From: Luteimonas sp.
GTDB lineage: Bacteria; Pseudomonadota; Gammaproteobacteria; Xanthomonadales; Xanthomonadaceae
DNA length: 64,000 nucleotides
Reading direction: 5' to 3'
Assembly: GCA_024707405.1 (NCBI GenBank)
Contig: JANPZU010000003.1
Span: 310,001-374,000, forward strand
Within the stretch, counting starts at the first letter, position 1. The number at the start of each line of letters is the position of its first letter. Made by a program: the position numbers and the translations under genes. The notes under the pieces were generated by a model. That model was not told the origin of the DNA, searched no databases, and worked only from the letters and a program-made list of their open reading frames with translations. This document shows, piece by piece, positions 19,155 to 37,051 of the stretch.

Positions 19155-19181
19155 GTCATTGTGTCGCGGTATCCACGCCGG

Positions 19182-19232
19182 AGCGTGGTGGGCGGTACAG
19201 GGTTCGAACCTGTGACCCCTACCATGTCAAGG
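19182..19232. repeat. attL: direct repeat holding the tRNA-Val 3' half
   Basis: 51 bases identical to 37001-37051; with one mismatch the match extends left to 19174/36993. It contains the 3' half of tRNA-Val from the anticodon loop to the CCA end (19187-19232, minus strand) without the 5' half, so it is a remnant and not a second tRNA gene. Confidence 0.92.
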
Positions 19233-19281
19233 CATGCTCCTGACTTGTAATTTCAATAACTTAAGAATATTTTTGAGTTTC

Positions 19282-19301
19282 TTGAACCAATTTTGAACCA
19301 A
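19282..19301. repeat. Paired TTGAACCAA repeats inside the left end (possible integrase arm sites)
   Basis: TTGAACCAA occurs at 19282-19290 and 19293-19301, an 11-base period, between attL and the integrase start. A similar pair of GAACCA cores with the same 11-base period lies inside the right end at 36849-36866. Same-orientation short repeats near both ends are what tyrosine integrase arm-type sites look like; this role is inferred. Confidence 0.35.
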
Positions 19302-19315
19302 AGGTCTCTCAGAGC

Positions 19316-20400
19316 ATGGGATGCATCATCAAGCGCGATAGCGGCAAGTGGTGGGCCAGAGTGCGAGTCGCTGGCTACCCCCAGCAGTCCCGGACGTTCG
19401 ATCTTAAGAAGGACGCCGAACATTGGGTGACGGCGACTGAGCGTGAGCTACAGACCTCCGGCTTCATCGATCGACGCGAGGCCGAGAAAACCACCCTGCG
19501 CGCTGCCCTCAAACGATACCTCGAAGAAGTCACACCGCGAAAGAAGAGCAAGGATTTCGAGACGATCAAGATTGGGATCTTTCTGGCGGACAAGGCCTTG
19601 GCCGACCTGAAAATGTCCGCCATCACCAGTTCTGCGGTGGCTGGCTGGCGCGACCGCCGAGCCAAAGAAGTTGGTGCGGCGACGATCATCCGTGAGCTGG
19701 GGATTCTCTCGGCCGTGCTCAACCAAGCTCGGCGCGAGTGGGGAATCCACGTCGAGAATCCTATCCGCTACGTCAAACGCCCCCCGGCTCCGCGTGCGCG
19801 CGATCGCCGGCTGTCTGTCGAGGAACAGGTCACTCTGCTCGGCGTGCTGACCGAGGAAGCGCCCAGGAAGGCGGATGGCACTTTTGGCGGTGGCGGGAGT
19901 CGGAACCCTGGCTCGCGCCAGTTGTTCGGCTGGCGCTGGCGACGGCCATGCGACGCGGTGAATTGCTGTCGCTGGTTTGGGAGCACATCGACTTGAAGCG
20001 ACAAGTGGCGCATCTGCCAGAAACAAAGAATGGCGAAAGTCGGGACGTGCCCTTATCGAAAGAGGCAGTCGAAATCCTAAAGGGGTTGCCGGGCGGTATT
20101 AAGGTCGAGGGCAAGGTGTTCCCCATCACTCCGAACGCCATCAAGATGGGATTCGTTCACGCGAAAGAGAGAGCTCTGGCTAAGTACCGGAAGGATTGTG
20201 AGGAAGCTGGAAAGCAGCCGTCACCAAAATTCCTCACCGACCTGCGCTTCCATGATCTTCGCCACGAATCCACATCACGGCTTGCCGAAAAGCTCCCGAA
20301 CGTCATCGAACTCTCGTCGGTCACTGGGCACAAGGATTTGCGGATGTTGAAGCGCTATTACCACCCGAAGGCAGAAGATTTAGCCAAGAAGCTGGGTTGA
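19316..20400 (+). pseudogene. Tyrosine recombinase integrase, one frameshift
   Basis: Site-specific integrase of the phage type, about 361 residues across two frames. The N-terminal arm-binding and core-binding part (19316 to about 19885) reads to DGTF; the catalytic part continues in the -1 frame. Adding one T to the T4 run at 19882-19885 restores DGTF-WRWRESEPWLAP. All catalytic residues are present: Arg in ATAMRRGELLSL, HDLRH, and GHKDLRMLKRYYHP with the Tyr nucleophile. It lies 84 bases inside attL, as expected for the element's own integrase. The break may be a sequencing undercall, a real deletion or, less likely, frameshift decoding on TTTT. Confidence 0.85.
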
Positions 20401-20403
20401 GCG

Positions 20404-21326
20404 TCAGGAGGTGGCTCTCGTCATGTTGATGAAATCACCAAGATCATCCAGGCGGTGCGCCCAGAACAATGAAAGCCCTTTGTCTTGGGCGAGTAATAGA
20501 TTTTGCGGACGAAAGACGCCACTCAGGACTGCTGCAGGCACAGCATGAGCTGTTCCCAACTTACTTGTCCATGCCGTGGCTTTGCCTGCGGCCTCATGCA
20601 CTACTCGCTTGAAGCTGTTGACCGAACTATTGGAAACCTTACATTCGATAAGCAGAAGACGGTCATCGAACAGGGACACAACGATATCTGCCTTCTCTCC
20701 CCAAACTTCGCTCTCCCCGCAAAATGAACCTGCGGGCGGGACATCTCGAAACGTTCTTATTGGTCGAGGCGCAACCTCTGTGAGTCCGAGGATGTCTTGA
20801 AGGTATGCTTTGGTCGCTCGTTCTTGCTCATTTTTTCCCGCATGTCGACGTTGGGTTGCCACCGCCTGCGCGGTCATGAGGGCTGCAGTAGCAGTGATCG
20901 CTGCACGCCACTCGCCGGCGTGAGGCTTCACTCCCGAGCTTATCCATGGAAATCTGATCGGATCGAGTGACGCACGCAGTGTGCGAAGTACGCCTTTAGC
21001 ATGCGAAGGCTGTCGAAGCGCTTTTAAGCTGAGCGTTGAGTCGGAAAGCGTCTTTAAATCGTCGTCTGAGATCGGCGGGGCTGCGAGGTACCTTAGAACG
21101 CCACCAAGACCCTTCTCGTGCATCGCATGAATCTGGCGCGAGTGCACACGTGCGGGATTTCGAAAATTCAGCGCATTGAATGTCTGCCGGACTTGGCGAC
21201 GCTTTTGGAAGAAGGTGGTCTTCCAAATACTCAATGGCTCCCCAATCCTGGACTCCCTGAATAAGGCCGTTGCCTTTGCAACGTCGACCTGCAGGTCTTC
21301 GAGAGTCCACTGTCGGGGCTTGGCAG

Positions 21327-21330
<4 letters not shown>
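20404..21330 (-). CDS. Type II restriction endonuclease, XamI-like
   Basis: 308-residue nuclease read from ATG 21330, which overlaps the methyltransferase stop in an ATGA junction. The C-terminal half holds a PD-(D/E)XK core: KADIVVSLFDDRLLLIECKV gives the Asp and the ECK pair at normal spacing. The overall look, and the pairing with a gamma-class adenine methyltransferase, recall XamI/SalI-type enzymes that cut GTCGAC; the family call is from memory and moderate. The gene is intact. The integrase converges on it with a gap of three bases. Confidence 0.7.
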
Positions 21331-22990
<1,660 letters not shown>

Positions 22991-23206
22991 GGCCTCTCAT
23001 CCGTGCAATGGCCCAGCCTGTCCACGATGGACGGGCCAGGCCGCTCAGGCATTTTTACCATGAACGTCGCAAGAGATGCGACTTTGCCGCCCGTCGAGGT
23101 GAGTGTGCAGGGGGCGGCCCTTGTTTCATCTGGGTGAAGCGAGACGGCGGCGCGTGTCAAGTGGATGAGCGGTCACATTCGGCATGGTGACATCTGGGGA
23201 GGAGCA
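22991..23206. other. Intergenic stretch, no gene recognised
   Basis: 216 bases between the methyltransferase start and the next minus-strand gene. Short open frames exist on the plus strand but lack a ribosome site or recognisable sequence. It presumably holds the promoter of the restriction-modification operon; no clear -35/-10 pair or operator could be picked out. Confidence 0.4.
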
Positions 23207-23518
23207 TCACATCAAGAGCTCCAGTGTGAACTCCTCAACTCCTTCGTTCGGACGAAGGTAGTCAAGCACATCAAGCAATTGATCGAACTCATCCTCACCA
23301 ACATTGGACGCATGCAATGCGCCGAGTAGATAGAAGTAGACCTCGTTTGGGTGCTTCGTCAGCATGCCACTTCTCATGGCCGAAATCGCAGGGCGTAGGC
23401 GGTTGAATAGCGCGGGGATTGCCGAAGTGATTTGCTCAACCTTGGCCACCACCGCGAGGTTGTCATCATTGGCCGCAGCCAATGAATACGAACTATCCCG
23501 AATCCTTTGCAATGTCAT
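23207..23518 (-). CDS. Hypothetical protein, 103 aa
   Basis: Small acidic protein, predicted soluble and mostly helical, with no recognised family. ATG 23518 has AAGGA ten bases upstream. It follows the TraD-like gene in the same direction with a 37-base gap, so the two may form a short transfer operon to the left of oriT. These genes would enter a recipient early, because the nicked strand runs leftward from oriT. Function unknown. Confidence 0.55.
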   Translation of the reverse strand: MTLQRIRDSSYSLAAANDDNLAVVAKVEQITSAIPALFNRLRPAISAMRSGMLTKHPNEVYFYLLGALHASNVGEDEFDQLLDVLDYLRPNEGVEEFTLELLM

Positions 23519-23555
23519 CGACCCTATTCCTTGGGTTGTGGTGGATGGAACGCTT

Positions 23556-23834
23556 CTAAGATCCGCTGGCCTCCGAGTCCTGAAACAGGAAGCTAAGCAC
23601 TGCCTGCTGGTCCCGATGCTGCAAGTGCTTGGAAATTAGATCACGCACAGCCGAGCGACTGCCTGGCTCTGATACTAGCTGCTTCTCGATCGCGACACCA
23701 AGAAGGAGAAGGCAGCGATTACGCGCTCGTCGTTCCGCCGCGGCTTCTCGGCTCTTCACTCGAGCGATTCGCGCATTAATTTTCGCATTCAGATCTGACT
23801 TCTTCTGGAGAAGCTTTTCAAGGCTAATAGACAT
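23556..23834 (-). CDS. TraD-like conjugal transfer accessory protein
   Basis: 92-residue basic, helical protein starting at ATG 23834 (MSISLEKLLQKKSDL). The run of Lys/Arg-rich heptads with RIARVKSREAAAERRARNR, then a short hydrophobic patch LLLLGVAIEK, resembles the small TraD/MobC-like proteins encoded beside MobA/MobL relaxases on Ti and related plasmids. It is divergent from the relaxase across oriT, the usual place for such proteins, and probably helps the relaxase at oriT. An open frame continues further upstream but overlaps the oriT region. Confidence 0.6.
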   Translation of the reverse strand: MSISLEKLLQKKSDLNAKINARIARVKSREAAAERRARNRCLLLLGVAIEKQLVSEPGSRSAVRDLISKHLQHRDQQAVLSFLFQDSEASGS

Positions 23835-23984
23835 ACTGGTCTTCTGGCGTGGAGATAGATCCAGAAGATCACTTCTGCCGATGAATCTCAATGCAGAAAA
23901 GTCTAAGAACGTCGGTGCACATAACGACTCTGGCAGCATTAGTCGTGCTGGTTCCTGCTCTTGATTGTGACCCGAAGCGGAGCA

Positions 23985-24014
23985 AGGGCGCACTTATACA
24001 TCGCTTCGCGATGT
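23985..24014 (-). other. oriT core: MOBQ-type nic site with hairpin
   Basis: On the minus strand, a perfect hairpin ACATCGC-GAA-GCGATGT (24014-23998) is followed by TATAAGTGCGCCCT. TAAGTGCG/CCCT is the nic sequence of RSF1010/Ti-type (MOBQ) origins. The predicted cut lies on the minus strand between 23989 and 23988. It sits in the 246-base gap between the divergent TraD-like and relaxase genes. Transfer would begin leftward, so the relaxase gene would enter last. Confidence 0.85.
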
Positions 24015-24080
24015 GTGCGGCCTGCCGGCGACAGAAGCAGGGCAGCGGCCTCCTATTAAACGGCATGAGGAAAGCGGCGC

Positions 24081-25493
24081 GTGGCGATCTTCCATCTCAG
24101 CGCTCAGATCATCGGTCGCAGTAACGGCCGATCCGCCACTGCGGCGGCGGCTTATCGATCTGGCGTCCGTATCGCCGACGAAAGAACGGGTGAGATTCAC
24201 GACTTCACGCGAAAGTCCGGAGTCCGGGAATCATTCATTGTTGCACCGGAATCTGCGCCGTCTTGGATGCTTGATCGTGATCGGCTTTGGAACGCTGTCG
24301 AGGCTTCAGAGCGGCGCAAGGATTCGCAGCTCGCGCGGGAGGTAGAGGTAAGCCTCCCGCACGAACTGACGGCAGAGAATCGCCGCAACCTGTTGCTAGG
24401 GTTCGTCCAGGATGAATTTGTGTCTCGTGGGATGATCGCCGACGTCGCAATGCATGCGCCCAGCAGGGCTGGTGATCGTCGGAATGAGCACGCTCATATC
24501 ATGCTGACTTTGCGCGAAATCGATGGCGATGGCTTCGGGAAGAAGGCCAGAGAGTGGAATGATTCCGAATTGGTGGAGCAATGGCGAAGAGCTTGGGCGC
24601 AGCGTGTGAATCAAGCGCTTTCTGACAACCAGATCGCCGAGCGGGTTGACCATCGCAGCTATGAGCGGCAGGCGGTGGCGGCTGGGCACGATACGGCGCT
24701 GAGCAATCTGGCAACCATTCATCTAGGCCCCCGGGCGTCCGGCATGGAGCGGCGGGGGAAACGCACGGCCCCTGGCGACTTGAATCGCGAAATCGGCGTG
24801 ATCAATTTAGAGCTTGAGCGCGCAAGGCGAGCAGCACAGCCTCTGAACGAGTGGCCAGATTTTCCGCAGGCGGAACGTGCATGGTTTGGTGCGCCTGACT
24901 TGCTGAAGTATTTTCGGGAGGTTCCGGCTCAGCCACCGCGCAAGGAAACTCCGGCCGCCACTTTGAGCGAGCCTGCCTTGCCAGAGCAGCGGCCATTCCG
25001 ACTGATGCAGAACGCAGTTCTTCTCATGAACAAATCTAGCGTTCCCGCGAAGAAGAAGTGCACGACATCGACGACGAAGAGCGGGTGGACAGAAGCCGAG
25101 AAGAGTAAGTGGCGGCGACTGCTGCTTGAGCGGCACTATCAGTCCAGAATCGAAGAATCGCTAGCCGTGATGCTTAAGTTCGTCGACCGGAATAGTGTTC
25201 AGAATGGCTTGCTTCTGAAACTTGTGGGAGGCGGGCAGATCGAGGATATCGGGGATCGAATTCAAGCCCGTGGTTACGATCTTCAAAGTGAGTGCCGTGC
25301 AACGGTTGCGCTTTGCAAGTCAAAGGGCTGGACCTCGATTTCCAGTTCCGGGCCGTCCGAGTATGTGGCGATGATGCGGGGTGAGGCTGAGCGCGCGGGG
25401 CTGAAATTCGTAACGAACAGCCACAGTAATTTCCAATTGAATGGCGAAGACTTCATGGATGGGGATGGGGATGAGATGAAGTTTCGCCCCTAG
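24081..25493 (+). CDS. MobA/MobL family relaxase (MOBQ)
   Basis: Relaxase of 470 residues that nicks oriT and pilots the strand. It starts at GTG 24081 with GAGGAAAG upstream. The N-terminal catalytic domain opens MAIFHLSAQIIGRSNGRSAT; the nucleophile Tyr lies in AAAAYRSG, and NEHAHIMLTL supplies the metal-binding His motif. The last 130 residues (ESLAVMLKFV ... CKSKGWTSISSSG) look like the LPD7-type domain found on many relaxases. It lies directly beside the oriT it should recognise. Confidence 0.9.
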   Translation: MAIFHLSAQIIGRSNGRSATAAAAYRSGVRIADERTGEIHDFTRKSGVRESFIVAPESAPSWMLDRDRLWNAVEASERRKDSQLAREVEVSLPHELTAENRRNLLLGFVQDEFVSRGMIADVAMHAPSRAGDRRNEHAHIMLTLREIDGDGFGKKAREWNDSELVEQWRRAWAQRVNQALSDNQIAERVDHRSYERQAVAAGHDTALSNLATIHLGPRASGMERRGKRTAPGDLNREIGVINLELERARRAAQPLNEWPDFPQAERAWFGAPDLLKYFREVPAQPPRKETPAATLSEPALPEQRPFRLMQNAVLLMNKSSVPAKKKCTTSTTKSGWTEAEKSKWRRLLLERHYQSRIEESLAVMLKFVDRNSVQNGLLLKLVGGGQIEDIGDRIQARGYDLQSECRATVALCKSKGWTSISSSGPSEYVAMMRGEAERAGLKFVTNSHSNFQLNGEDFMDGDGDEMKFRP

Positions 25494-25622
25494 CTTCGCA
25501 TCACGTTTCCACCACCCAGGAGCCGAATTTTTCGAACTTCGGTGTTCACCTGCGTCCACCTATTACCCTTTCAGAATTAGCGGCATTCTTTAGCCAAGAA
25601 TCTGTCGCCGGTGGGGGCGAAG

Positions 25623-25994
25623 ATGGACTATGGCGTTCTCGCTTTTCTACGTCGCCCAGCGCCCGGGTGGATGCGTATCGCTTCGCTGACTCTGATTCAT
25701 TCCACCGTCGGCCTTGTGCTCCTGATCGCTGCCGCGCTGTTGCCAGTTGCCGGCTGGCACCGTCTCTATCTCCGTCGTCCAGGCTGGTGGCTGATGCCCC
25801 TAGTCTATTCCGCCAGCGCCGGCACCATCGCCATTGTTGCCCTGGCGCCATTGGCGCGCCCGTGGGTGCTGCTCGTCGCTGCCGCACCGTTGGCTGTGCT
25901 CTGGGTCGCGGAATGCCACCTGATCCTTCGATCAGCGCCTGCGCTCGCGCGCAAGCAGGTCGCGCTCGACAAGCGCGAGGCGGTGGAAGTATGA
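25623..25994 (+). CDS. Small membrane protein before the DotA/TraY gene
   Basis: 123 residues from ATG 25623, which has GGGGGCGA upstream and is preferred over an in-frame GTG at 25611. Three to four hydrophobic helices fill the protein (LTLIHSTVGLVLLIAAALLP, GWWLMPLVYSASAGTIAIVAL, WVLLVAAAPLAVLWVAE), with a charged C-terminal tail. No family recognised. It overlaps the DotA/TraY start in an ATGA junction, so the two are co-translated and probably act in one membrane complex. Entry-exclusion or channel accessory roles are guesses. Confidence 0.65.
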   Translation: MDYGVLAFLRRPAPGWMRIASLTLIHSTVGLVLLIAAALLPVAGWHRLYLRRPGWWLMPLVYSASAGTIAIVALAPLARPWVLLVAAAPLAVLWVAECHLILRSAPALARKQVALDKREAVEV

Positions 25995-28297
25995 GCCGCT
26001 GCCCATTCGTTTCATGGGCAGTTGCTGCGCTCGCCGTCGGCGTGGCTCTCACCAGCCCTGCCACGGCGGCGCAGCAGCTGCCCACCCAATCCCGATTCTT
26101 CAGCCCGCCAGCTGACGACCCTGCCCTCGGCGTGCTGCGGGAGATCTTCGGGAACCTGGTCGACTATGTCGCCGGCAATGGTACGGTCGCAGACCTCGCC
26201 AACAACGACACGGTGCTTGGCGCCGGCTTCGCGGTCTTCTGCACCGCAGTTCTGACCCTCGGCCTGCTGTTCGTCGCTTACACCTCGATCGTCGGCGTCG
26301 TGAACACAGCGCACGACGGCGAGTTCCTGGGCAAGAAGATGTCGTCGATCTGGATACCGCTCCGAACGGCCGTGGGCAGCGCGCTCCTGCTGCCGTTGGC
26401 CGGTGGATTCTGCCTGCTGCAGATCATCGTGATGTGGCTGGCCGTCCAGGGCGTTGGCATTGCCGATGCTGGCTGGTCGGCCATGCTGTCCCGGATCCAG
26501 CAGACTGGAATGGTCGGGCATCCGAACATTCCGAGCGCCCGGCCCCTGGTCGCCAGCATCTTCCGCAGCGAAGTGTGCATGGCGGCCATGAACAAATCTT
26601 ACGAAGCGTCCGGCCGGAGTGAACGGATCCAGTTGGTGGAGATCCCAAGATCTGTTCTAGTACGAGTCCCCGATACGGTGAACAACGCGATTGACTCAAT
26701 TGGCCTGCTGGGCATGGGCTACAAACCTGCGGAGACACAAACTACAACATTCGCTTGGCAGTCCACCGGTGGCTATACGCGCAATGACGTGTGCGGACGA
26801 CTGGAATGGGAGGAAAGCTCCGCCTCGGAGGCCGGGAATGCTCGTCATATCAACCTGAGATCGGTTTATCACGCGCATGGTCGGTATGTCCGGGATGTGA
26901 TCATCCCGGAGATGCGATCTGCGGCCCAAGCCATCGTGGCAGGCCAGAAGCCGGAAGTGATCCCGATTGCAGACCTTGCCTATCGTTACGAAAACGAGCT
27001 CCGGGATTTGTCGCGTCAAGCTGTGGCTTCGATCGACAATTCACCACGGGATGGGTTCATCTCCTTCGCTGATCGCGGTGGGTTTCTCTCCGCTGGCACT
27101 TACTACAACCACATTATCTCCCTGCAAGATGCGGTGCAGATGGCCGTGAACTCGTTTCCGACCTCGGAAAGCATCGAAATAGACGAAAAGGAAACCGAGG
27201 CTGCACTTGTGGGCTATCGGGACGCCATGGCCGTTGCCGATGAATATCTGCTCAGGCGCACATCTTCTTCTCAGCAGGCATACCAGGCCGAACGTGGAGG
27301 CTGGGGAGCCTGCACGAATATCCCAAGAACCTGGGAAGCAATGAAAAAATGCATGTCGGAGCCGGCGCTTTGGGCCATCGGACAGATCACCGAGAACTTG
27401 GCCGGATCCAACACCTCGCACGTCGCACAGGTCAAATCGATCGGTGATGTGATCATGAATACAGCGTGGGCGGTCACGGGCGCCAACGTTGCACTTCGAT
27501 TCGCGGCCGGAACCGCCGAGAACGCTTCCGTTCTGGGGACGAAACCCGGCGTTGGAGGAGGAATAAAGTCGGCACTGGAATCTGTGGGCTTCCTTGTCTC
27601 GTTCCTGGTGATTTCATTGCTCTGCGCCGGTGCGATGATGTCGTTCTACATCCCAATGATCCCCTTCATCGCGTGGATCACGGGCATCATCAAATGGGTT
27701 ACGAGCGTCGTCGAGGCGATGATCTCCGCGCCGATCTGGGGTGCAGCGCACATCCACCCTGATGGAGACGACGCCGTCGGCCGCGCAGGCCCCGGCTACT
27801 TCATCATCCTGTCGATGATCATGCGTCCATTGCTGATGATCTTCGGCCTGATCTGTTCGATCGCCGTAGCCAATCCAATCGCGCACCTGGTCAACGACGG
27901 CTTCATGATGGCGGTCTCAGGTGCCATGCACGACAGCGCCAACGGCTTGGGCGCCCTGGTGGCCTATTCGGCGATCTACGTTGTCATCATGACCACCGTC
28001 CTGCATGCCTTGTTCGCGCTGATCAACTGGGTGCCCGACATGGTGATGCGCTGGATGGGAAGCGCCGTCGGCATGCACGGCGTGGGCGATCGAGAGGATC
28101 ACGAAGCCCAACAGGTCTTCGTCGCCGGCAGTCAGCGGATCTCGCACGGCTTCGGCGGTGCCGGGAAAGCCGGCAGGGGTGGTAAGGTCGGTGGTGACGG
28201 CGGCTCCGGCGGCAAGCCGGGCGGCGGTAGCGCGAGCACGAAGCAAAGCGACCATGCCGCGACCGAACGCGGTAGCACCAAAGAGAGCAAGGTATGA
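25991..28297 (+). CDS. DotA/TraY family type IV secretion inner-membrane protein
   Basis: Polytopic inner-membrane protein of 768 residues, homologous to DotA of the Dot/Icm system and TraY of IncI conjugation systems. A signal peptide ends ATA-AQQ. The first cluster of helices lies at about residues 70-160 (AVFCTAVLTLGLLFVAYTSI, PLRTAVGSALLLPLAGGFCL), then a long periplasmic loop, then helices from about 530 (SVGFLVSFLVISLLCAGAMM) to 690. The Gly-rich C-terminus is low complexity. In IncI systems TraY is the donor target of recipient exclusion protein ExcA. No other Dot/IncI gene is in the element. Co-translated with the genes on both sides. Confidence 0.85.
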   Translation: MSRCPFVSWAVAALAVGVALTSPATAAQQLPTQSRFFSPPADDPALGVLREIFGNLVDYVAGNGTVADLANNDTVLGAGFAVFCTAVLTLGLLFVAYTSIVGVVNTAHDGEFLGKKMSSIWIPLRTAVGSALLLPLAGGFCLLQIIVMWLAVQGVGIADAGWSAMLSRIQQTGMVGHPNIPSARPLVASIFRSEVCMAAMNKSYEASGRSERIQLVEIPRSVLVRVPDTVNNAIDSIGLLGMGYKPAETQTTTFAWQSTGGYTRNDVCGRLEWEESSASEAGNARHINLRSVYHAHGRYVRDVIIPEMRSAAQAIVAGQKPEVIPIADLAYRYENELRDLSRQAVASIDNSPRDGFISFADRGGFLSAGTYYNHIISLQDAVQMAVNSFPTSESIEIDEKETEAALVGYRDAMAVADEYLLRRTSSSQQAYQAERGGWGACTNIPRTWEAMKKCMSEPALWAIGQITENLAGSNTSHVAQVKSIGDVIMNTAWAVTGANVALRFAAGTAENASVLGTKPGVGGGIKSALESVGFLVSFLVISLLCAGAMMSFYIPMIPFIAWITGIIKWVTSVVEAMISAPIWGAAHIHPDGDDAVGRAGPGYFIILSMIMRPLLMIFGLICSIAVANPIAHLVNDGFMMAVSGAMHDSANGLGALVAYSAIYVVIMTTVLHALFALINWVPDMVMRWMGSAVGMHGVGDREDHEAQQVFVAGSQRISHGFGGAGKAGRGGKVGGDGGSGGKPGGGSASTKQSDHAATERGSTKESKV

Positions 28298-28638
28298 ACT
28301 CGACCGACTACTGGAGCGGTGCCGCAGCAGAGCGGATGAGCAACAACCGCGAGATCAGCGAGTGGCGCGCCCTTGTCCAAAGTCTGGAGCAGCGTCTGGC
28401 GGAAGCTGAGACCGCGTTGACCCATGAACGCATGTGGTCGAGCTACTACAGCACCCTTCGCGATATCGGCTATCAGGAACGCGAGCGCATGGCTGCAGAG
28501 CTGCAGCGCATCAAATCGCCGGTGCAAGAGAGCCCGCAGCCCGTGCTGCAGCAAAAGCTCATCGATGAGATGCGCCGCCAAGGCATCGAAGTATCCGGTC
28601 TTGGTACCAAGACCGTGAGGCTGACGCAGCTCCGCTAA
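28294..28638 (+). CDS. Hypothetical coiled-coil protein, 114 aa
   Basis: Soluble, charged protein starting in an ATGA overlap with the DotA/TraY gene. Residues about 20-75 carry heptad-like Leu/Glu/Arg spacing (SLEQRLAEAETALTHER, YQERERMAAELQRI), suggesting a coiled coil, and the C-terminus ends RRQGIEVSGLGTKTVRL. No family recognised. The tight coupling makes it part of the same three-gene unit as the small membrane protein and DotA/TraY, so it could be a cytoplasmic partner of the channel protein. Confidence 0.65.
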   Translation: MNSTDYWSGAAAERMSNNREISEWRALVQSLEQRLAEAETALTHERMWSSYYSTLRDIGYQERERMAAELQRIKSPVQESPQPVLQQKLIDEMRRQGIEVSGLGTKTVRLTQLR

Positions 28639-28646
28639 TCAGCGGG

Positions 28647-28898
28647 CTATGGCGAAGGTCTGAATGCCTCGCCCAGCACCTGGATCAGGGCATTCTCCTG
28701 CGCGACATCGAGCGCGGCGTCCGGCTGGGAAAGGGGGCGAGTCACAACCAGTTCCAGACGAGCGCGATCTATCCCGTCGGCATCGAGTTGGGCGATCAAG
28801 TCCTCGGCCGACCTTGCCGACCACCGCTGCGCGTTCGGCCCAGCGATCCTGGCTAGAAAGCCGCCAGCGCCAATGATGAAAACCGTGTCGTCGGGCAT
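28647..28898 (-). CDS. Hypothetical protein, 83 aa
   Basis: ATG 28898 was chosen because GGAGG lies eight bases upstream; an in-frame ATG at 28913 has no ribosome site. The protein begins MPDDTVFIIGAGGFLARI and is otherwise soluble and mixed in character; no family recognised. It converges on the DotA/TraY unit with an 8-base gap and stands alone on this strand. Confidence 0.5.
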   Translation of the reverse strand: MPDDTVFIIGAGGFLARIAGPNAQRWSARSAEDLIAQLDADGIDRARLELVVTRPLSQPDAALDVAQENALIQVLGEAFRPSP

Positions 28899-29057
28899 GT
28901 TCCCAGCCTCCATGGCAACTCATTTTACGCCGCATGCCGCAGTGGGGTGTGCGGGCCGTCTGGTGCCGAGTAGGCCGGTAGATTTCGGGAGGCGGCACTG
29001 GTTTCCAGTGGGCACCACTTAGACGGAGGCATGTAGCGCCCAACCGACCACTTGCAA

Positions 29058-29078
29058 TATGTGGTAATATGCCACATA
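29058..29078. promoter_or_regulatory. Inverted repeat before the ParD-like gene (putative operator)
   Basis: TATGTGG-N7-CCACATA, perfect 7-base arms, lies 8 bases before the preferred antitoxin start. Autoregulation of toxin-antitoxin operons through such a repeat is usual, and its position argues against the upstream in-frame ATG at 29069, which lies inside it. The remaining gap 28899-29057 shows nothing else. Confidence 0.6.
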
Positions 29079-29086
29079 CTGCCCCA

Positions 29087-29392
29087 ATGGCAAAGAATGT
29101 TCGCATTTCAGACGAGCTGTATGCCCTGGCCCAGATGGAATCCAGGCTGCAAGACCGCAGCATCGCCCAGCAGTTGGAGCACTGGGCCAAGCGGGGGATA
29201 GCTGCGGTTGGGAGCCTGGGGGCTGGGCATCGCACCGTGAGCGCGGTGGATGCCGCCGTGGCCATGACCCGGCGATTGGATGAACTCGAGGTCCTCAGTG
29301 GCAGGCGCTCCGCCGACGCGACGCATCTCATCTCTCGCTCAGCGGCACGCCAAAGTAAGCGGGTCTTCCATGGCAAGTATCAGAAGAGCTGA
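29087..29392 (+). CDS. ParD-like antitoxin
   Basis: 101 residues from ATG 29087. The N-terminus KNVRISDELYALAQMES followed by RSIAQQLEHWAKRGIA is the short helix-rich DNA-binding form of ParD-like antitoxins. The C-terminal half (GHRTVSAVDAAVAMTRRLD, then a basic tail) would be the toxin-binding part. It is followed after three bases by the nucleotidyltransferase-like gene and preceded by an operator-like repeat, the arrangement of a Type II or Type IV toxin-antitoxin pair. Confidence 0.65.
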   Translation: MAKNVRISDELYALAQMESRLQDRSIAQQLEHWAKRGIAAVGSLGAGHRTVSAVDAAVAMTRRLDELEVLSGRRSADATHLISRSAARQSKRVFHGKYQKS

Positions 29393-29395
29393 CGG

Positions 29396-30220
29396 ATGAG
29401 CCGAGAAAACGAAGCCTACATGCCCCCGGATCTGATCCGGAGGGTTCTGGAGGGCGCATCGACCGGCGAGGTGCTGATCGGCGGCCAGGCTTTGGCTTAC
29501 TGGATGGGGGTCTATAACGTTCGCTTGCCTATCGGCAGTGGATCAGCAGTTTCCCGGGACGTGGATTTCTTCACGCGCAATGCCGCGAACATCACTCCGC
29601 TCAAGCAGTTTGCTCTTGCGATAGGCGGTCGCGAGGAAGTTAATGACATCCGAAACATTTCCGCGCTAATTGGCAGTGCCATCGCCCCTGCCGAGGACGG
29701 GCGGATCTACAACGTGGATCTCCTGCACGATGTTGTCGGGTTAGATCGCGATCGGCTCGAAGCCAATGCGTTCACTGTGCAGTTGCCAGGAACAGATACT
29801 GAAATTCGGGTGATGCACCCGCTCGATCTACTGCAGAGCCGTAATGCCAATCTGCATTTGTTGACTGAGAAGCAGGATCATGCCGGCCAGCTTCAATTCC
29901 GCTTGGCGATCGAGGTTGCCAGAGCATTTTTGGAAGAGCAGATCGATCAGATCACAGAAGACGCAGAGCTGACGGTTCAGCAGCGCCAACGTGCCGTTTT
30001 CGATGCCGTCAGTATCGTGAATGACTACTCCACGGAAGATGCCGCAAAGAAGAATGCCGAGCGGTACGGCATTTTTCTGGCCGATGCGATACCCGCATGG
30101 CGCATCGAGTCCGATGTGTTCTGGGAAAAGCAGTGGCCACACCTGCGGGAACGTATGTCACAAGACTATGCAAATGAATGTGAGGAATGGGTGGGTCGAA
30201 ATCTTTCGTCAGGATCATGA
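29396..30220 (+). CDS. Nucleotidyltransferase-fold protein (putative toxin)
   Basis: 274-residue protein with the polymerase-beta nucleotidyltransferase signature: IGGQALAYW (G29-G30) and SRDVDFF, whose D55 and D57 would bind metal. Proteins of this fold serve as toxins or abortive-infection effectors (AbiEii, MenT) by modifying tRNA or proteins. The middle part (LLHDVVGLDRDR, RVMHPLDLLQSR) also fits the AbiEii-like layout. The pairing with a ParD-like partner, and not an AbiEi or HEPN/MNT partner, is unusual. A free-standing enzyme is the alternative. Confidence 0.65.
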   Translation: MSRENEAYMPPDLIRRVLEGASTGEVLIGGQALAYWMGVYNVRLPIGSGSAVSRDVDFFTRNAANITPLKQFALAIGGREEVNDIRNISALIGSAIAPAEDGRIYNVDLLHDVVGLDRDRLEANAFTVQLPGTDTEIRVMHPLDLLQSRNANLHLLTEKQDHAGQLQFRLAIEVARAFLEEQIDQITEDAELTVQQRQRAVFDAVSIVNDYSTEDAAKKNAERYGIFLADAIPAWRIESDVFWEKQWPHLRERMSQDYANECEEWVGRNLSSGS

Positions 30221-30240
30221 TCTTTCATCGGGTCAAGTAA

Positions 30241-30423
30241 ATGCCTCTGCTCAAGCTGGTAATCGACAACCCCAGCCCCACGCCTTCGGCTTACCTGCCA
30301 CGCCCCTGGGTAGAGATGTTCGGCGCCCAAGATCCTCACATGGAGGACATTTCCACGTGGGAGGATGCCCTGCGCAGTGGCCTGCCGATCGTGCGTCACC
30401 CCGACGACTTCGACGCCCTATAG
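30241..30423 (+). CDS. Hypothetical protein, 60 aa
   Basis: Short acidic open frame 20 bases after the nucleotidyltransferase gene on the same strand (MPLLKLVIDNPSPTPSAYLP ...). No family and no clear ribosome site, so it may be real and co-transcribed or may be chance. It is followed closely by the convergent helicase gene. Confidence 0.4.
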   Translation: MPLLKLVIDNPSPTPSAYLPRPWVEMFGAQDPHMEDISTWEDALRSGLPIVRHPDDFDAL

Positions 30424-30474
30424 CGTGCCGACCTGCCTCTAGTGGCCGGCACTAAGAACGTGCGCAGAGGCAAA

Positions 30475-33171
30475 CTAACGCACGGGCGTAAACCCCTGGC
30501 GAGCCGCAAGAAGGACGACATCCTTAGGATTGACCGTGCGCCGAAGGTTCTTGAGCACCTTGTATTGGGTTTCCGGCGTCCAGAAGATCCGCAAATGGCG
30601 TCGCGCGCGGGTGACTGCGGTATAGAAGATGCTGTGCGTCAAGTTGTCTTCGTTGGCGTCAGTCACCACGACCTTCACCGAGTCGTACTCCAAGCCTTGG
30701 GCCTTATGAATCGAGACCGCATAGGCGACCTGGAAGGGCACTACATTTTGCGGTTGGTCGTCATCGTCGTCGCTGGTGTCCTGGTCGGTCACGGAAAACC
30801 GCACGGTTGAATCGGCGACCCATTCCAGTTCGGTTCCTGCGACGTCGAAGGCATCAAGCGGACGCTCCACCTGCACGTCGAATCGCAACGATTCTAGGCC
30901 ATGGCGCATTGCCACGATGCGTCCCTTGAGATTGTTGTACAGGATCGGGCGAAATCGTTCAGACTCGTTGAACAGAATTGGGTCGCCCACCTTGTAGGTG
31001 GCCTCTCGCCAGATCACTGCAGGGTTAGGGTTGCCACCCTGCAGGAAGCGATTGACGTTGTTGATGCCGTAAAGGCCGTCGTAATTCAGGCATAGGATGA
31101 TTTCGTCATCGCTCGTGCGCTCGAACAAGCTCTTGTCAAGAACGCTAGAATAGCCATTTTTCGCAATCACCTCGTCGATGTCATCTTCGATATTTCGAAC
31201 CTTGTTCCAGAAGCGCAGCAGAGGCGGACTCTTCGTCCGAAACGGCGTGGTCAGCTCGAAGATCGCGCTCTTTGGCAGGAACGAACGGATGATTGAAAAC
31301 CAGTTGCCGAACTGAATCGACTCGATTTGGTAGACGTCACCGACAAGCACCAGCAGCTTGAAAGAGGTCTTCCTTAGCACCTTTAACAGGTCTGCATTAC
31401 TGACCGTACTGCACTCGTCGATGACCAACAGGTCGTATTCGGGATCCAGGCCGGTTCGGTGGATGTGTTTGCTGATCGTCCGGAACGTCGCATGCTGGGC
31501 ATTGACCTTGCGATCGAGGTTATCGATGGCTGGGTTGGTGTGGGCTAGGAAAAGCTTGGTCTTGTCGTTGAAGTAGTTTGCGATATGGTCGACCATGGTC
31601 GACTTTCCAGTGCCGGCGGCGCCATAGATCAAGGCGACCTTGGAGTCGGTAAACAGGCGCTCGAGCGCATCCTTCTTGACCGGGTCGTCGACGTGAGGGG
31701 GCTGCTGCTGTAGCCACCGCGCCACTGCCTGGCTGTAACCGGCAATGCCCTCCCGCGCAATCGCTTGCAACGCTGAAACAATGGCAGCCGTCTCATCCTC
31801 GTAGCCGCGGATAAAGACGTGGTCTCTGTCTTGCTCGAGCGTCCGGTGCCCATGCCTGTAGTAGAGCTGGCTGTTGAACACAGCGATCAGCGCCGTCGTA
31901 TCGCCGAACAGGTTCAGATCTTCGGCCGGAGTGTAGAGCATCCCGTGTTGTTCGACGTTGATGTGCAGCCGACGTGCCAGCATTTCGTGCCGCCGATCAC
32001 CGGCATCTAACGCTTCAACAAGATCAGCAAAGCGCGGGTTGTGACCGCGAAGCGAGGTGCAAAACGGCATGGTTTCAAAGGGAATGCAGCCGAACTCAAC
32101 GTTCAAATTCGATAGTCGCCAGCATGAATCCGTCGAGTACTGTGCGCGGATCACCGAATTGTGCAGACGCAGCATCAGGTATCGCAGGAGGTTGTGGCCG
32201 GCTAGGCGTGCGCGAACGATGCGGCGTGCTTCATCGAGAATCGGATAGATGGCAAGGCGGGTACCGGCAGATCTGGGAACAAAGCGGATAGCCTGATAGG
32301 CGTCCTCGTCCATGTCCATCAAGTCCAGCAGACTTCCTGCGGTGTTCGTCAGCCACTGATTAAGCTGGCGGAACTCGGCCGAGGTGCTCGACACCTGGCT
32401 GTGAATACCCAGTACCTTCCCGAAGTTGGTCAGTTCGCAGGGGCGAATGGATACGTCCCAGGCGCGGACAAGCGTGATGGGCATTGTCTGGTCAAGCACG
32501 CGGATCGAGTCGCGTTGCAGTACCAAATAAGCCGAGTAGTTGTCGGTCAGGTCGATGTCGGTGAAGGCAATGATGCGATCAAATTTGCTCACCATGTCCA
32601 CCGCACGAGAGAAGGTCACCTCGTAGTAGATGCTTCGCTCGACGAAGAAGGGACGTACCTTGTGGATGTAGTACCGCGCACCACGTTCGCGGTCAAAGTG
32701 CGTACCGATGGCCGCTTCGATGCGCTGAGCAATCTTCTGGTGGTACTCGCGCAACGAGGGATCTAGATCGAGCGGAAACGACTCCAGGTTGCCCAGCACT
32801 TCCATCGCGCAGGTGGTTCGTACCAAGTTTCGCAGACGGTACATATACTCGTAGTACTTGAGCATCAGCCGCTCGGAGGCATCGCCATCGAGGGTGTAGT
32901 GCGAGCTGCTGGCTTGGAGTAAGCGGTGGAAGCGGGCGAGGAAGTTCAATTTCCCCTGGCTGCGGACGTACGCCAGCGCCGGTTTGACCACATCAAAGCT
33001 AAACTCTGCGTCGTTATTGTCCTGGTGGAGGCGCACCATGACACCTTCGACCAAGTTGCGTAGTTGCGCCAGCACATTTTGAGACAACAGCGGACGTTGC
33101 TCGCCCAATGCATCAATGTTCTGGCAAATTGCTGCGCTGGCGCTTCTTATTTGCTCTGCAACTTTTGTCAT
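30475..33171 (-). CDS. RecD-like superfamily 1 helicase with large unassigned N-terminus
   Basis: 898 residues. The first 500 or so residues have no recognised domain. A superfamily 1 helicase follows: Walker A IYGAAGTGKST, Walker B-like LLVIDECSTV, LVGDVYQIES (motif III), then the UvrD-type C-terminal motifs YAVSIHKAQGLEYD and FYTAVTRARRHL. This is the RecD/TraA-like layout. It stands alone between a toxin-antitoxin-like pair and the partition module. Related stand-alone helicases occur in defence islands, so an anti-phage role is possible; element replication or transfer are alternatives. Confidence 0.8.
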   Translation of the reverse strand: MTKVAEQIRSASAAICQNIDALGEQRPLLSQNVLAQLRNLVEGVMVRLHQDNNDAEFSFDVVKPALAYVRSQGKLNFLARFHRLLQASSSHYTLDGDASERLMLKYYEYMYRLRNLVRTTCAMEVLGNLESFPLDLDPSLREYHQKIAQRIEAAIGTHFDRERGARYYIHKVRPFFVERSIYYEVTFSRAVDMVSKFDRIIAFTDIDLTDNYSAYLVLQRDSIRVLDQTMPITLVRAWDVSIRPCELTNFGKVLGIHSQVSSTSAEFRQLNQWLTNTAGSLLDLMDMDEDAYQAIRFVPRSAGTRLAIYPILDEARRIVRARLAGHNLLRYLMLRLHNSVIRAQYSTDSCWRLSNLNVEFGCIPFETMPFCTSLRGHNPRFADLVEALDAGDRRHEMLARRLHINVEQHGMLYTPAEDLNLFGDTTALIAVFNSQLYYRHGHRTLEQDRDHVFIRGYEDETAAIVSALQAIAREGIAGYSQAVARWLQQQPPHVDDPVKKDALERLFTDSKVALIYGAAGTGKSTMVDHIANYFNDKTKLFLAHTNPAIDNLDRKVNAQHATFRTISKHIHRTGLDPEYDLLVIDECSTVSNADLLKVLRKTSFKLLVLVGDVYQIESIQFGNWFSIIRSFLPKSAIFELTTPFRTKSPPLLRFWNKVRNIEDDIDEVIAKNGYSSVLDKSLFERTSDDEIILCLNYDGLYGINNVNRFLQGGNPNPAVIWREATYKVGDPILFNESERFRPILYNNLKGRIVAMRHGLESLRFDVQVERPLDAFDVAGTELEWVADSTVRFSVTDQDTSDDDDDQPQNVVPFQVAYAVSIHKAQGLEYDSVKVVVTDANEDNLTHSIFYTAVTRARRHLRIFWTPETQYKVLKNLRRTVNPKDVVLLAARQGFTPVR

Positions 33172-33412
33172 TGACAGAACCTAAAAATAGACACGGTAAA
33201 AGCCATCGGAAGAAAAAACGAGATGCTCGAAAAGTTGATTCTAGTGGCTTCAGTCGACCAGAGTGAGCGTCGGTCATCCAGCGGGACATTGTCTCAACGG
33301 GTCTAGGTTCCACTGGCTGGCTACTCAGAATTCTGACTGGTGCTTACGTAGTGGCCGGCTGACGAATACATCACAACCTCGGTAGCATCGCAGTGTCAAG
33401 CGAGGGGATAAC

Positions 33413-33655
33413 ATGCTCATTAAGGGCGCCGACGGGCGCGATTATTTCGATCCGTGCCATGGACGCCTGCAGGCCATCACTGCGACCGGTCGGCGTCTGG
33501 ATGCGCTGCTGTCCACTATCCCTCCGGAGAAGCGCGAGGTCTATCTCGTGGAGGCCTTGGCGGAGTTTGATTGCCCGGATGAGGCCGAAGCCTTGGCACT
33601 ACGCATCATCGAACTAAAACTGCGCCAGTCTCACGGGCTGCCAGAACCGACATAA
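33413..33655 (+). CDS. Hypothetical protein, 80 aa
   Basis: Small soluble protein with a good ribosome site (GAGGGG, 6 bases before ATG 33413). It starts MLIKGADGRDYFDPCHGRLQ and has helical character later (EKREVYLVEALAEFDCPDEAEALAL). No family recognised. It diverges from the helicase across a 241-base gap (33172-33412) in which no other gene or clear motif is seen. Confidence 0.55.
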   Translation: MLIKGADGRDYFDPCHGRLQAITATGRRLDALLSTIPPEKREVYLVEALAEFDCPDEAEALALRIIELKLRQSHGLPEPT

Positions 33656-33737
33656 CCGACCATTTGGCGGCTCATAGCGATGAGCGGAGCATTGCCTTTC
33701 TAAACTCGCGTCTAGTTATTTGAACTACACATCCAAT

Positions 33738-33773
33738 CCAATGCAGGGGGATATTGAGGTCCCCCTGCATTGG
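33738..33773. repeat. Perfect 14-bp inverted repeat (strong hairpin)
   Basis: CCAATGCAGGGGGA and TCCCCCTGCATTGG flank an 8-base loop in the gap between two convergent genes of the element. The stem is long and GC-rich but no T-run follows on either strand, so it is not a standard terminator. A Rho-assisted transcript end, a replication-related hairpin or a protein site are possible. Confidence 0.7.
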
Positions 33774-33793
33774 CTGGGTGATGTTGGAAAACC

Positions 33794-34009
33794 CTAGCCC
33801 GCCGTCGCACCCTTGGCTAGCGCCTCCAGGGCGCTGAGGTTGCGATCGCCGAGTGATGACTCGACCTGGCGCTTGATCGCCTCGCGAAGCGCGCGACGCT
33901 GCTGAGGATCGCGAACGTCCCGGAACCAGTGGGGCACCAAGGCACGCGCAAGCGCCTGTGCTGTGCGGGCCTTCTGCTGGGTGGTACGGGTAATCTGTGA
34001 CGTAGCCAT
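33794..34009 (-). CDS. Hypothetical small basic protein, 71 aa
   Basis: ATG 34009 has an excellent ribosome site (AGGAGG five bases upstream), so the gene is probably real despite its size. The protein is helical and basic (TRTTQQKARTAQALARAL, HWFRDVRDPQQRRALREAIK). No family recognised. It is the last gene of the minus-strand maintenance operon after ParA and the ribbon-helix-helix protein. Confidence 0.6.
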   Translation of the reverse strand: MATSQITRTTQQKARTAQALARALVPHWFRDVRDPQQRRALREAIKRQVESSLGDRNLSALEALAKGATAG

Positions 34010-34076
34010 AGCTGCCTCCTGTATAGGCGGTTGTGGTTAGGTGCGCCCGGGATGGCCGTCTCGGGTGCACCGCTTC

Positions 34077-34094
34077 ATGGCGTCATGACGCCAT
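34077..34094. repeat. 18-bp perfect palindrome in the par region (possible centromere or operator)
   Basis: ATGGCGTCATGACGCCAT is a perfect palindrome just after the RHH gene, with a further GTGACGTC immediately beyond it. Clusters of such sites near a ParA/RHH pair can be the partition site or operator; this role is inferred. Confidence 0.4.
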
Positions 34095-34106
34095 TGCTTC
34101 GTGACG

Positions 34107-34412
34107 TCAAAGTGGCGGAAGCCCACGTTTGACGAAAATCTCATTGATCCCCTTCTGGATCAACTGATTAAGACTTAGCCCTTCGGTGAGAGCCAGTTCG
34201 TGCAACCGGCGCCATTGGTTTCGATCGATGCGGTACGTTAGGGCGACGGTCGGCCCTTTGCCGCGCCGACGAGCCTCTCGGGCTGGCAATGCAGTCGCTT
34301 CTGGCGTGGTGGCCTGGGCATCGGCCGTCGACGTTGCAGTCGTGGCAATGGCAACTACCTTGTTCTCGGCCCCGAAGGCGGCCAAGCCTGTTGGCTTCCT
34401 TCCGGCGCTCAT
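34107..34412 (-). CDS. Ribbon-helix-helix DNA-binding protein, ParA partner
   Basis: 101 residues. A flexible Ala/Thr-rich N-terminal arm of about 50 residues is followed by TVALTYRIDRNQWRRLHELA and GLSLNQLIQKGINEIF, a ribbon-helix-helix fold. Small RHH proteins of this kind (ParG/ParC-like) bind the centromere and stimulate ParF-type ATPases. It overlaps the ParA gene by four bases, so the two are coupled. Confidence 0.7.
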   Translation of the reverse strand: MSAGRKPTGLAAFGAENKVVAIATTATSTADAQATTPEATALPAREARRRGKGPTVALTYRIDRNQWRRLHELALTEGLSLNQLIQKGINEIFVKRGLPPL

Positions 34413-35023
34413 GCCAACCTCCCTTTGAGTTCATTCCACACGGCACTGATTTCGGCAGCTGCTCGGCCCGCTGGCTCAAACTCGCTTACCGCGCGCCCGG
34501 ATGCCACTGCGCGAGCGAACGCTCGACGCTCAGTGAGCTCGGCGTCAAGCACCGGAATCCCATAGCGCTGCAACACCACCCTTGATTCAGCAATCTCAGG
34601 TGCTCGTGTCGGGCATGAGGACAGCATCACCACGACCTGCCTTGACTGCCTGGCGATTGCGATCGATGCCTCCGCAGCAGCCAAGTCAAAAGCCGAGGGT
34701 CGAACCGGAATCACGACAAGATCCGCGGATCTCGCAACTGTCGCGGCACCTGCTGTAGCGTGCGGGGGTGTATCTACGATGCATAACGTCATGGCGTCAT
34801 AGCGTCCTGCCGCCAGAACGTCATCAAGTCTGTCAATCGGGATAGCAATAACAGCGGGGTCACCTTGATTCCGTGTCCGCGCCCAAGCTGCTGCGCTTCC
34901 TTGGGGATCGGTGTCTACGATGAAGGCTCGCTCTCCGGCTTTGAAGGCTTCGACGGCCAGATGAACCGCAAGCGTGGTCTTGCCCGCGCCACCTTTCTGC
35001 GCGGCTATGGCGATCGTCTTCAT
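34409..35023 (-). CDS. parA: ParA-family partition ATPase
   Basis: 204-residue ParF/Soj-like ATPase that drives DNA segregation. The deviant Walker A KGGAGKTT lies near residue 11, FIVDTDPQGSAAAW follows as A', and CIVDTPPHAT is the Walker B region. No N-terminal HTH, so it is the short Type Ib form that works with a small RHH partner, here the next gene. Its start overlaps the replication-initiator-like gene by four bases. It suggests the element exists at least transiently as a circle that must be segregated. Confidence 0.88.
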   Translation of the reverse strand: MKTIAIAAQKGGAGKTTLAVHLAVEAFKAGERAFIVDTDPQGSAAAWARTRNQGDPAVIAIPIDRLDDVLAAGRYDAMTLCIVDTPPHATAGAATVARSADLVVIPVRPSAFDLAAAEASIAIARQSRQVVVMLSSCPTRAPEIAESRVVLQRYGIPVLDAELTERRAFARAVASGRAVSEFEPAGRAAAEISAVWNELKGRLA

Positions 35024-35955: not shown

Positions 35956-35958
35956 GTG

Positions 35959-36291
35959 CTAGGCCCCGTTGCCACGAGGCCTATTGCGACTTCCCTTGGG
36001 CCGACCAGGCTTGCGTCGCTCTGCAGGCGGCTCAGGAGCTCGTTGGCCGGTCGTCATCCAGGCATCCACCACGTCCTCGTACCAGAGCCACGCTCGCCCA
36101 CCTGGGCGCTTGAATGCCCCTGGTGGCAAGCGGTGGCGCCGGGAGGGGTCACACATGTAGTGGCGGATGGTCTGGTGGCTCAGGCCTGTCTTCGCAGTGA
36201 GACCGCGATGATCGATTACTCGTCGGCTGACAGTATCGTGGTGCATCGTGTGCCGGGTTGCGGCACCGAGAGAGGATCCTTGGTTATGCAT
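35959..36291 (-). CDS. AlpA/excisionase-like DNA-binding protein
   Basis: Up to 110 residues; a shorter start at ATG 36246 (MHHDTVSRRV) is equally possible. The core GLTAKTGLSHQTIRHYMCD followed by RPGGRAWLWYEDVVDAWM is a winged HTH of the AlpA/MerR-like excisionase group, with a basic tail (RRKPGRPKGSRNR). It is the first gene of the replication/partition operon, near the right end of the element, and may control excision or that operon. Confidence 0.6.
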   Translation of the reverse strand: MHNQGSSLGAATRHTMHHDTVSRRVIDHRGLTAKTGLSHQTIRHYMCDPSRRHRLPPGAFKRPGGRAWLWYEDVVDAWMTTGQRAPEPPAERRKPGRPKGSRNRPRGNGA

Positions 36292-36296
36292 TGGGT

Positions 36297-36314: not shown

Positions 36315-36387
36315 GCAGCTGCGGCCGGCTTGCCGCGGGCTGTCGGGATAGGTGCTGCGCGGGCGGTCGTCTGACCGCCAAAGCCCG

Positions 36388-36971: not shown

Positions 36972-37000
36972 GGCGGTATTTTTCCATGTCCTCACGCCGA

Positions 37001-37051
37001 AGCGTGGTGGGCGGTACAGGGTTCGAACCTGTGACCCCTACCATGTCAAGG
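37001..37051. repeat. attR: direct repeat within tRNA-Val
   Basis: 51 bases identical to 19182-19232, covering the tRNA from the anticodon loop to the 3' end plus a few bases beyond the CCA. The 3' half of the functional tRNA is therefore supplied by the element, which keeps the gene intact after integration. Confidence 0.92.

Follow-up and report, generated by a model that had tools for sequence, protein, structure and literature searches.

A lone gene for a DotA/TraY channel protein lies close to a relaxase gene and a likely origin of transfer (oriT) in a 17.8-kb element of Luteimonas sp. (assembly GCA_024707405.1, contig JANPZU010000003.1, positions 310,001 to 374,000; this entire 64,000-nt stretch is called the window, and its coordinates are used for the element throughout). 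The element occupies positions 19174-37051 in tRNA-Val, framed by a 59-nt direct repeat (58/59 identical). We propose that it is probably a satellite, which would put its own VirB6-type subunit (DotA) into the channel of a helper whose type IV secretion system (T4SS) is of the mating-pair formation class MPF_I. Such a swap is supported because lone DotA recurs, often beside a relaxase, in genomes without DotH and DotO; further support comes from purifying selection in two pairs of lone genes, from the proximity of lone to helper-type DotAs in the tree, and from coexistence with an MPF_I plasmid in strain 85-10. The original prediction had DotA and its two neighbors entering the helper channel as a trio: on these grounds the part concerning DotA is supported, while the trio proved not to be a fixed unit.

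25991..28297, + strand: DotA/TraY (VirB6-type) channel subunit, 768 residues (TIGR04346 and match to DotA in the PDB)

This protein reached 383.9 bits against TIGR04346 (DotA_TraY, cut-off 100) over model positions 5-656 of 656, which places it in the family, and it matched the solved DotA structure 9ngy (E 2e-44); the three plus-strand genes predicted at 25623-28638, the 768-residue DotA/TraY among them, are real. Against the T4SS_DotA equivalog NF033886 it scored 352.9 bits, below the cut-off of 500, so it counts as a relative only, outside the type IVB DotA that the model describes. Columns conserved across T4SS-linked and lone DotAs are kept in the alignment. In the Dot/Icm machine DotA plays the part of VirB6 and forms a central pentamer with IcmX, according to the accessible part of PMC12857230, and the available text of PMC6112013 describes trans complementation of traY defects for IncM and IncI plasmids.

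When 44 transfer-region proteins of R64 and pXCV183 were compared with the window by tblastn (E up to 1e-3), only DotA was matched; together with the MobA_MobL relaxase and the oriT core described below, this agrees with the predicted element that has oriT and relaxase and no other T4SS gene. The host genome (92.9% complete) yielded one DotA/TraY match in all and no match for DotH, DotO or TrbI/VirB10, and so does not show the DotH, DotO and DotG by which MPF_I is recognized. The DotH model was silent in the control genomes of the host search too, and the DotH search of eight genomes (0/8 matches) was run without a separate positive control; the model (PF12293) did match in the family and class samples described below. 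A complete T4SS elsewhere in the host genome was considered and rejected, as its core genes had no match.

Lone DotA was found in 17 elements, "lone" meaning that tblastn detected no other DotH/DotO-type core gene in the stretch. These are the window, L001-L006, pXCV19, pB2 (pB2_V1 and V3 counted once), p66, G323-C81, G415, G260, G362, G369, G152 and G312; L007 and a DotA fragment in G032 were left out. The word needs qualification for five elements with a TraX-like gene, two with PilV and one with a PilM-like gene. A relaxase was recognized by Pfam in the window, L002, L005, G415, G260, G312 and pXCV19, by BLAST in L006 and G152 (where the gene is short) and as a fragment in G323-C81, and by annotation in pB2 and p66; none was recognized in the part of the genes scanned for L001, L003, L004, G362 and G369. 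Plasmid pXCV19 is a circular record of 19.1 kb, G415-C2 (20,156 bp) and G362-C2 (20,959 bp) are the second contigs of two-contig genomes, and G312-C7 (59,352 bp) has its DotA in two pieces at the contig ends, which is what a circular replicon would give. The last three contigs, each searched whole by tblastn, contained no other T4SS gene except TraX-like ones. The lone elements were also searched for a full T4SS normally linked to these genes, which had been named beforehand as contrary evidence, and none turned up. Two cases qualify this: a coupling-protein-like gene (2412-4565, PF12696, E 2.2e-7) shares the contig with DotA in L003, whose genome has no DotH, and further contigs of G323 carry T4SS genes.

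DotA and DotH were then counted across genomes. In the family sample (395 genomes, sampled identically for both searches) DotA was present in 11 and DotH in three, all of them within the 11. The DotO profile, run on the 11 DotA genomes and on the seven genomes holding L001-L007, matched just the three DotH genomes, plus one weak match in G817 (E 5e-4). Eight of the 11 DotA-bearing family genomes lack matches to both DotH and DotO, and one of these eight (G032) holds the fragment only. The class-wide sample (369 genomes, some of them incomplete: G725 63%, G755 58%, G719 77%) had DotA in 52 and DotH in 47, with both in 41, DotA only in 11 and DotH only in six. Several other T4SS genes stood alongside all six DotH-only loci; adding G297, G323 and G441, DotH kept T4SS company in 9/9 loci with flanks read, the other 41 being outside this count. 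Around the ten class-sample DotA-only loci besides the window, tblastn found no other T4SS gene within 8-20 kb. Among these ten, a hidden Markov model (HMM) placed a TraX-like gene close to DotA in L083, which may therefore be an ordinary icmV-dotA locus, and L084 gave not even a DotA match by tblastn. Record counts in Enterobacterales (TraY vs TraU: 3538 vs 3750 in all; Escherichia 1423/1378, Klebsiella 920/918, Salmonella 456/449) revealed no large excess of lone TraY in the plasmids of that order.

The ratio of non-synonymous to synonymous substitution rates (dN/dS) was 0.07 for pXCV19/pB2 and 0.21 for G362/G369, the two lone pairs with unsaturated dS, values that indicate purifying selection on DotA in both; a T4SS-linked DotA pair gave 0.22. 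A DotA tree was built from 34 rows (15 lone, 10 linked, 8 from the class sample, and L007), leaving off p66 and G312 (split), G032 (fragment) and most T4SS-linked records. Lone and T4SS-linked DotAs interleave in it, and well-supported branches force at least five changes between the two states: the lone DotA of P. agarici is sister to Pseudomonas MPF_I plasmids, pXCV19/pB2 has the T4SS-linked G297 DotA as its sister, and G415/G323 cluster with IncI-like systems. Either lone DotAs were captured several times from helper-type machines, or the remaining genes were lost several times around a DotA that stayed; the pattern agrees with both.

A co-resident Dot/IncI-type system, whose search the original prediction had suggested, was found in Xanthomonas euvesicatoria strain 85-10, in which pXCV19 (mobilizable, MOBQ, with lone DotA) coexists with pXCV183. 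The latter was typed as MPF_I, having DotA, a DotB-type ATPase, DotD, IcmT, DotI, DotH, DotG, IcmB, IcmO and IcmP, and both plasmids are named for strain 85-10 in the accessible part of PMC10432156. G323 is suggestive only as a case of satellite and helper; its lone-DotA island is on one contig, DotI/DotH/DotG (96% to pXCV183) are on a second and DotO is on a third.

The remaining features of the element are as follows.

19174..19232, no strand: attL-like repeat copy, 3' end of tRNA-Val (58/59 identity to 36993-37051; 51 nt exact)
19316..20400, + strand: tyrosine integrase split between the frames 19316-19996 and 19738-20400 (alignments with the L002, L005 and L015 integrases run through both)
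23556..23993, - strand: probable mobilization accessory protein (41-42% to "plasmid mobilization protein" genes of pB2 and p66)
23985..23996, - strand: putative oriT core TAAGTGCGCCCT with adjoining hairpin (motif match and fold)
24081..25493, + strand: MOBQ (MobA/MobL) relaxase with C-terminal LPD7 domain (PF03389, E 2.7e-69; PF18821, E 4.4e-6, at its cut-off)
25623..25994, + strand: membrane protein of 123 residues, here named HR-WW, start uncertain, no Pfam family above cut-off (21-row alignment)
28294..28638, + strand: coiled-coil-like protein of 114 residues, DotA/relaxase-associated family (alignment of five; HMM matches in other loci)
34409..35023, - strand: ParA-type partition ATPase, a plasmid-like trait (NF041546, 181.6 bits, cut-off 180)
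36993..37051, no strand: attR-like repeat copy (59-nt repeat), overlapping the intact tRNA-Val(gac) gene at 37005-37079 (- strand)

The relaxase is 61-62% identical to those of pXCV19, pB2 and p66. Its LPD7 domain is also present in the relaxases of L002, L005, L031 and L038 and in a 1255-residue protein of R64, and is absent from the relaxase of L032, from NikB and from the pXCV19 relaxase. Directly upstream of the relaxase the core TAAGTGCGCCCT, which we take to be the MOBQ nick motif, has its one match in the window (0 expected), with a hairpin beside it (z -1.7). The same core accompanies the relaxase in pXCV19, pB2_V1, pB2_V3 and p66_OSU778, where the hairpin is nearly identical, and on the chromosome of G152, where the hairpin is changed; it is likely that the element carries an oriT.

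The GC content of the element is 58.8%, vs 64.6% and 64.2% in its flanks. The relative G010 (L101) has a junction of TonB-receptor gene, tRNA-Val and uvrB without the element, consistent with excision and transfer, and its TonB-receptor gene is 90% identical to that of the window across the 395 residues in view. The integrase starts 83 nt inward of the left repeat and is 36% identical to the L001 integrase, which belongs to PF00589 (E 1.1e-27); the Int_N model PF24624 gave 24.8 bits on it, under the cut-off of 27. The element thus shows what is expected of an integrative mobilizable element, namely att repeats with an adjoining integrase and its own relaxase and oriT (the latter by motif only) without a full MPF. 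Activity of this integrase is doubtful because it is frameshifted in this assembly. Among close relatives the strand of the tRNA-Val gene relative to uvrB is opposite (window 37005-37079 compared with L101, L103 and L108). A helicase is also encoded, and the cargo includes restriction-modification genes, a XamI-type endonuclease (PF09572, E 4.3e-26) with an Eco57I-like methylase close by (20404-21447, 21881-22990). At 29069-30220 a ParD-like protein (PF11903) is followed, 3 nt on, by a 274-residue protein without Pfam family above cut-off, possibly forming a toxin-antitoxin pair.

Two small genes flank DotA. ATGA-overlap starts had been predicted for all three genes and were seen for dotA and the coiled-coil gene, while the HR-WW gene has its own ATG, 129 nt past the relaxase stop. 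Several HR-WW homologs line up with a start at 25623 (123 residues), the database copy P0005 has 107 residues and the longest frame 127. The protein displays three hydrophobic segments (Kyte-Doolittle), and a middling AlphaFold model, too weak for a fold search, places helices at 15-39, 57-74 and 80-115 (predicted local distance difference test score 75.5, predicted template modeling score 0.45). L34, P41, G44, H46, R47, W55, W56, P59 and W81 are invariant in the 21-row alignment, for which 17/19 homolog matches were used (P0004 and P0005 left out) and whose rows are not all independent, as P0012 repeats the L002 protein. HR-WW was absent from all ten T4SS-linked DotA loci scanned (1-20 kb around DotA), and the window protein had no tblastn match in 72,556 plasmid records. 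Its position is taken by a TraX-like protein in R64 and in the lone elements G415, L005, L006, G362 and G369. HR-WW was considered as a TraX relative and rejected, no similarity being found by hhalign.

The 114-residue protein found only itself in a single-sequence homolog search, and its family, which is weakly conserved, emerged only via neighbors, with members found by HMM beside DotA or a relaxase. They lie beside or near DotA in the helper plasmids L015, L132, L133, L138 and G297 and also in L001, L004 and G312; the gene comes directly after the relaxase in L002 and in the pXCV19 group (for the latter group weak matches, E 0.005-0.1), and one L002 match (2977-3603, E 8e-7) is away from DotA. 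Position is the stronger argument for this family, because coiled coils can match by composition. With HR-WW in few lone elements and the coiled-coil gene also beside helper-plasmid DotAs or beside the relaxase, the three genes do not form a fixed unit.

PilV (PF04917) adjoins DotA in L001 (12588-13850, E 4.7e-83) and L002 (8463-9875, E 1.5e-45), where it stands between HR-WW and DotA; tblastn gave no further pilus gene of R64 or pXCV183 type in these two stretches. L001 PilV shares 70% identity with the PilV of plasmid pNY11210, and the DotA of this plasmid falls in the sister group. The lone-DotA island L005 has a lone PilM-like protein (13305-13739, 31%, E 4e-14), and the window has neither a PilV nor a PilM-like gene.

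Further observations concern other DotA loci. In L007 (1-3784) homologs of two pXCV183 genes (378 and 166 residues) precede DotA, near an integrase, in a metagenome-assembled genome without DotH/DotO match; L007 is perhaps a satellite with additional subunits. The 378-residue pXCV183 protein was considered as IcmX/VirB5, for which a PDB sequence search gave no support. Open frames of 278-482 residues in L082, L085, L086 and L011 span just the DotA C-terminal part, and reverse transcriptase genes (PF00078) lie near two lone-DotA islands (L001 6210-8057, L004 14388-15446).

According to the mechanism that we propose, an MPF_I (Dot/Icm, IncI-type) helper would drive transfer of the element, whose DotA would replace the helper DotA/TraY and assemble in the helper channel. 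The swapped DotA would likely favor export of the element and perhaps let it past the entry exclusion of the helper; such a bypass is plausible, if the least certain step, and we put it slightly below an even chance. HR-WW may assist DotA or serve as the exclusion factor of the element, and the coiled-coil protein may link relaxase and channel.

Several points weigh against this proposal. No helper T4SS was found in the host or in the seven genomes holding L001-L007, and G323 is not a clean satellite-plus-helper pair, because a single DotA match was all that its genome gave. The integrase, as assembled here, is frameshifted, the DotA of p66 is split in two open reading frames and G032 holds only a fragment. 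HR-WW occurs in 4/17 lone-DotA elements (the window, G152, L001 and L002), and the coiled-coil protein occurs beside DotA in helper plasmids or beside a relaxase. Five further lone pairs had dN/dS of 0.08-0.32 at dS >1.2, which is saturated, so that they carry little information. The class-wide counts are less lopsided (11 vs 6) than those of the family and by themselves a weak argument. Finally, region by region, the divergence between lone and helper DotAs is concentrated in no segment, and helper-helper pairs show the same loop-below-core pattern; being unfocused, it gives no sign of exclusion escape in the sequence.

Some of these points would also be expected if the element were a remnant, that is, a former T4SS-bearing plasmid or integrative and conjugative element stripped to dotA, which was then retained by chance. 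The frameshifted integrase, the split DotAs of p66 and plA (on plA one of the two copies), and the DotA fragments in G032, G521, G711 and G769 agree with decay, and the five or more linked/lone changes of the tree could be losses. We nevertheless consider decay unlikely, since it is DotA that remains, in eight DotH-less family genomes without DotO, and DotH was never lone in the nine loci with flanks read; moreover, dN/dS was low in both usable pairs, the window/pXCV19 group has MOBQ relaxases vs the MOBP of pXCV183 and R64, and the oriT core is common to chromosomes and plasmids. Another explanation is that MPF_I plasmids, whether arriving or already resident, have their channel poisoned or blocked by DotA and HR-WW, which would act as a defense or fertility-inhibition device. 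HR-WW was found only in lone elements, the element also bears restriction-modification genes and mixed VirB6 pentamers could be inactive; yet the frequent relaxase linkage of lone elements (11/17, with one relaxase short and one fragmentary) and the lone PilV of two relatives fit transfer better, and linked and lone DotAs keep their shared conserved columns, so that interference appears improbable to us as well.

HR-WW could also act in entry exclusion on behalf of the element itself, forming a pair with DotA as ExcA does with TraY, and the module would then mainly bar sister elements. A small multi-helix membrane protein abutting DotA would suit this role, excA adjoins the TraY gene in R64, and in the mobilizable island GISul2 TrbK lies beside TrbL, an IncP island having a similar small gene (available text of PMC5704250). 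We regard this role as doubtful, although worth keeping in mind, given that HR-WW resembles no known family (ExcA itself was not compared), that its gene is upstream of DotA like TraX, with which it does not align, and not downstream like ExcA, and that few of the lone elements have it.

Returning to the proposed satellite, a wider claim stands for us at even odds: that MPF_I machines have widespread, repeatedly arisen satellites bringing recipient-facing subunits, always DotA/TraY (the exclusion target), sometimes PilV (the recipient-recognizing pilus tip), with the satellite-only HR-WW as a switch or exclusion factor. If true, together with SGI1 (TraG, TraN) and GISul2 (TrbL), VirB6 replacement would be a general strategy at which satellites of three T4SS classes have arrived convergently. 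Remodeling of the helper channel, which has been shown for satellites of IncC and is suspected for those of IncP, would extend to the Dot/IncI class, and the suggested rule is that VirB6 is the one part that a conjugation satellite brings, sometimes with a recipient-binding adhesin. Orphan DotA/TraY genes, easily dismissed as remnants, would mark helper-satellite pairs, and exclusion in MPF_I systems would become testable.

Full-text literature searches (titles and abstract starts, subscription papers mostly outside) returned no lone DotA/TraY satellite unit; neither TraY nor DotA is mentioned in the available text of PMC5704250, and TraY is absent from that of PMC11389934. Parallels to a VirB6 swap do exist for other T4SS types, as the accessible parts of PMC5704250 and PMC5389848 indicate. 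The VirB6 homolog TraG of SGI1 (TraGS) takes the place of its helper counterpart and disables entry exclusion (available text of PMC5389848). Like SGI1, whose helper is IncC (MPF_F), the element is a chromosomal mobilizable element encoding a VirB6-type subunit of a helper channel (here a predicted one), and L001 and L002 add PilV as SGI1 adds TraN, these being the two mating-pair adhesin types in the part of PMC8213034 at hand. Unlike SGI1, it would be of the MPF_I class, with its own MOBQ relaxase and oriT core and no TraH counterpart. The SGI1 family inserts in trmE (PMC8409611, in part) and is without canonical relaxase (PMC5704250, in part), so with DotA instead, a tRNA-Val site and a MOBQ relaxase the element falls outside it (TraN, TraH and TraG were not searched by sequence).

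GISul2 and the IncP island are likewise mobilizable, with TrbL (the VirB6 of MPF_T) and without full MPF (available text of PMC5704250); they differ in belonging to MPF_T and in also carrying VirB5 (TrbJ), for which the window had no tblastn match to R64 TraW, the VirB5 counterpart of the pXCV183 lineage not being identified. The likeness to pXCV19 extends to the MOBQ relaxase (61%), an identical oriT core and the lone DotA (57.6%), although pXCV19 is an unintegrated 19-kb plasmid without HR-WW match, with its coiled-coil gene after the relaxase and without LPD7 in the latter. As in IncI1 R64, a small protein gene (traX in R64) lies just upstream of DotA/TraY, whereas R64 has a full T4SS and ExcA, and HR-WW fails to align with the TraX-like profile. 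Helper-channel remodeling by a satellite is a known principle, of which the element of Luteimonas would represent a new, MPF_I (Dot/IncI) version.

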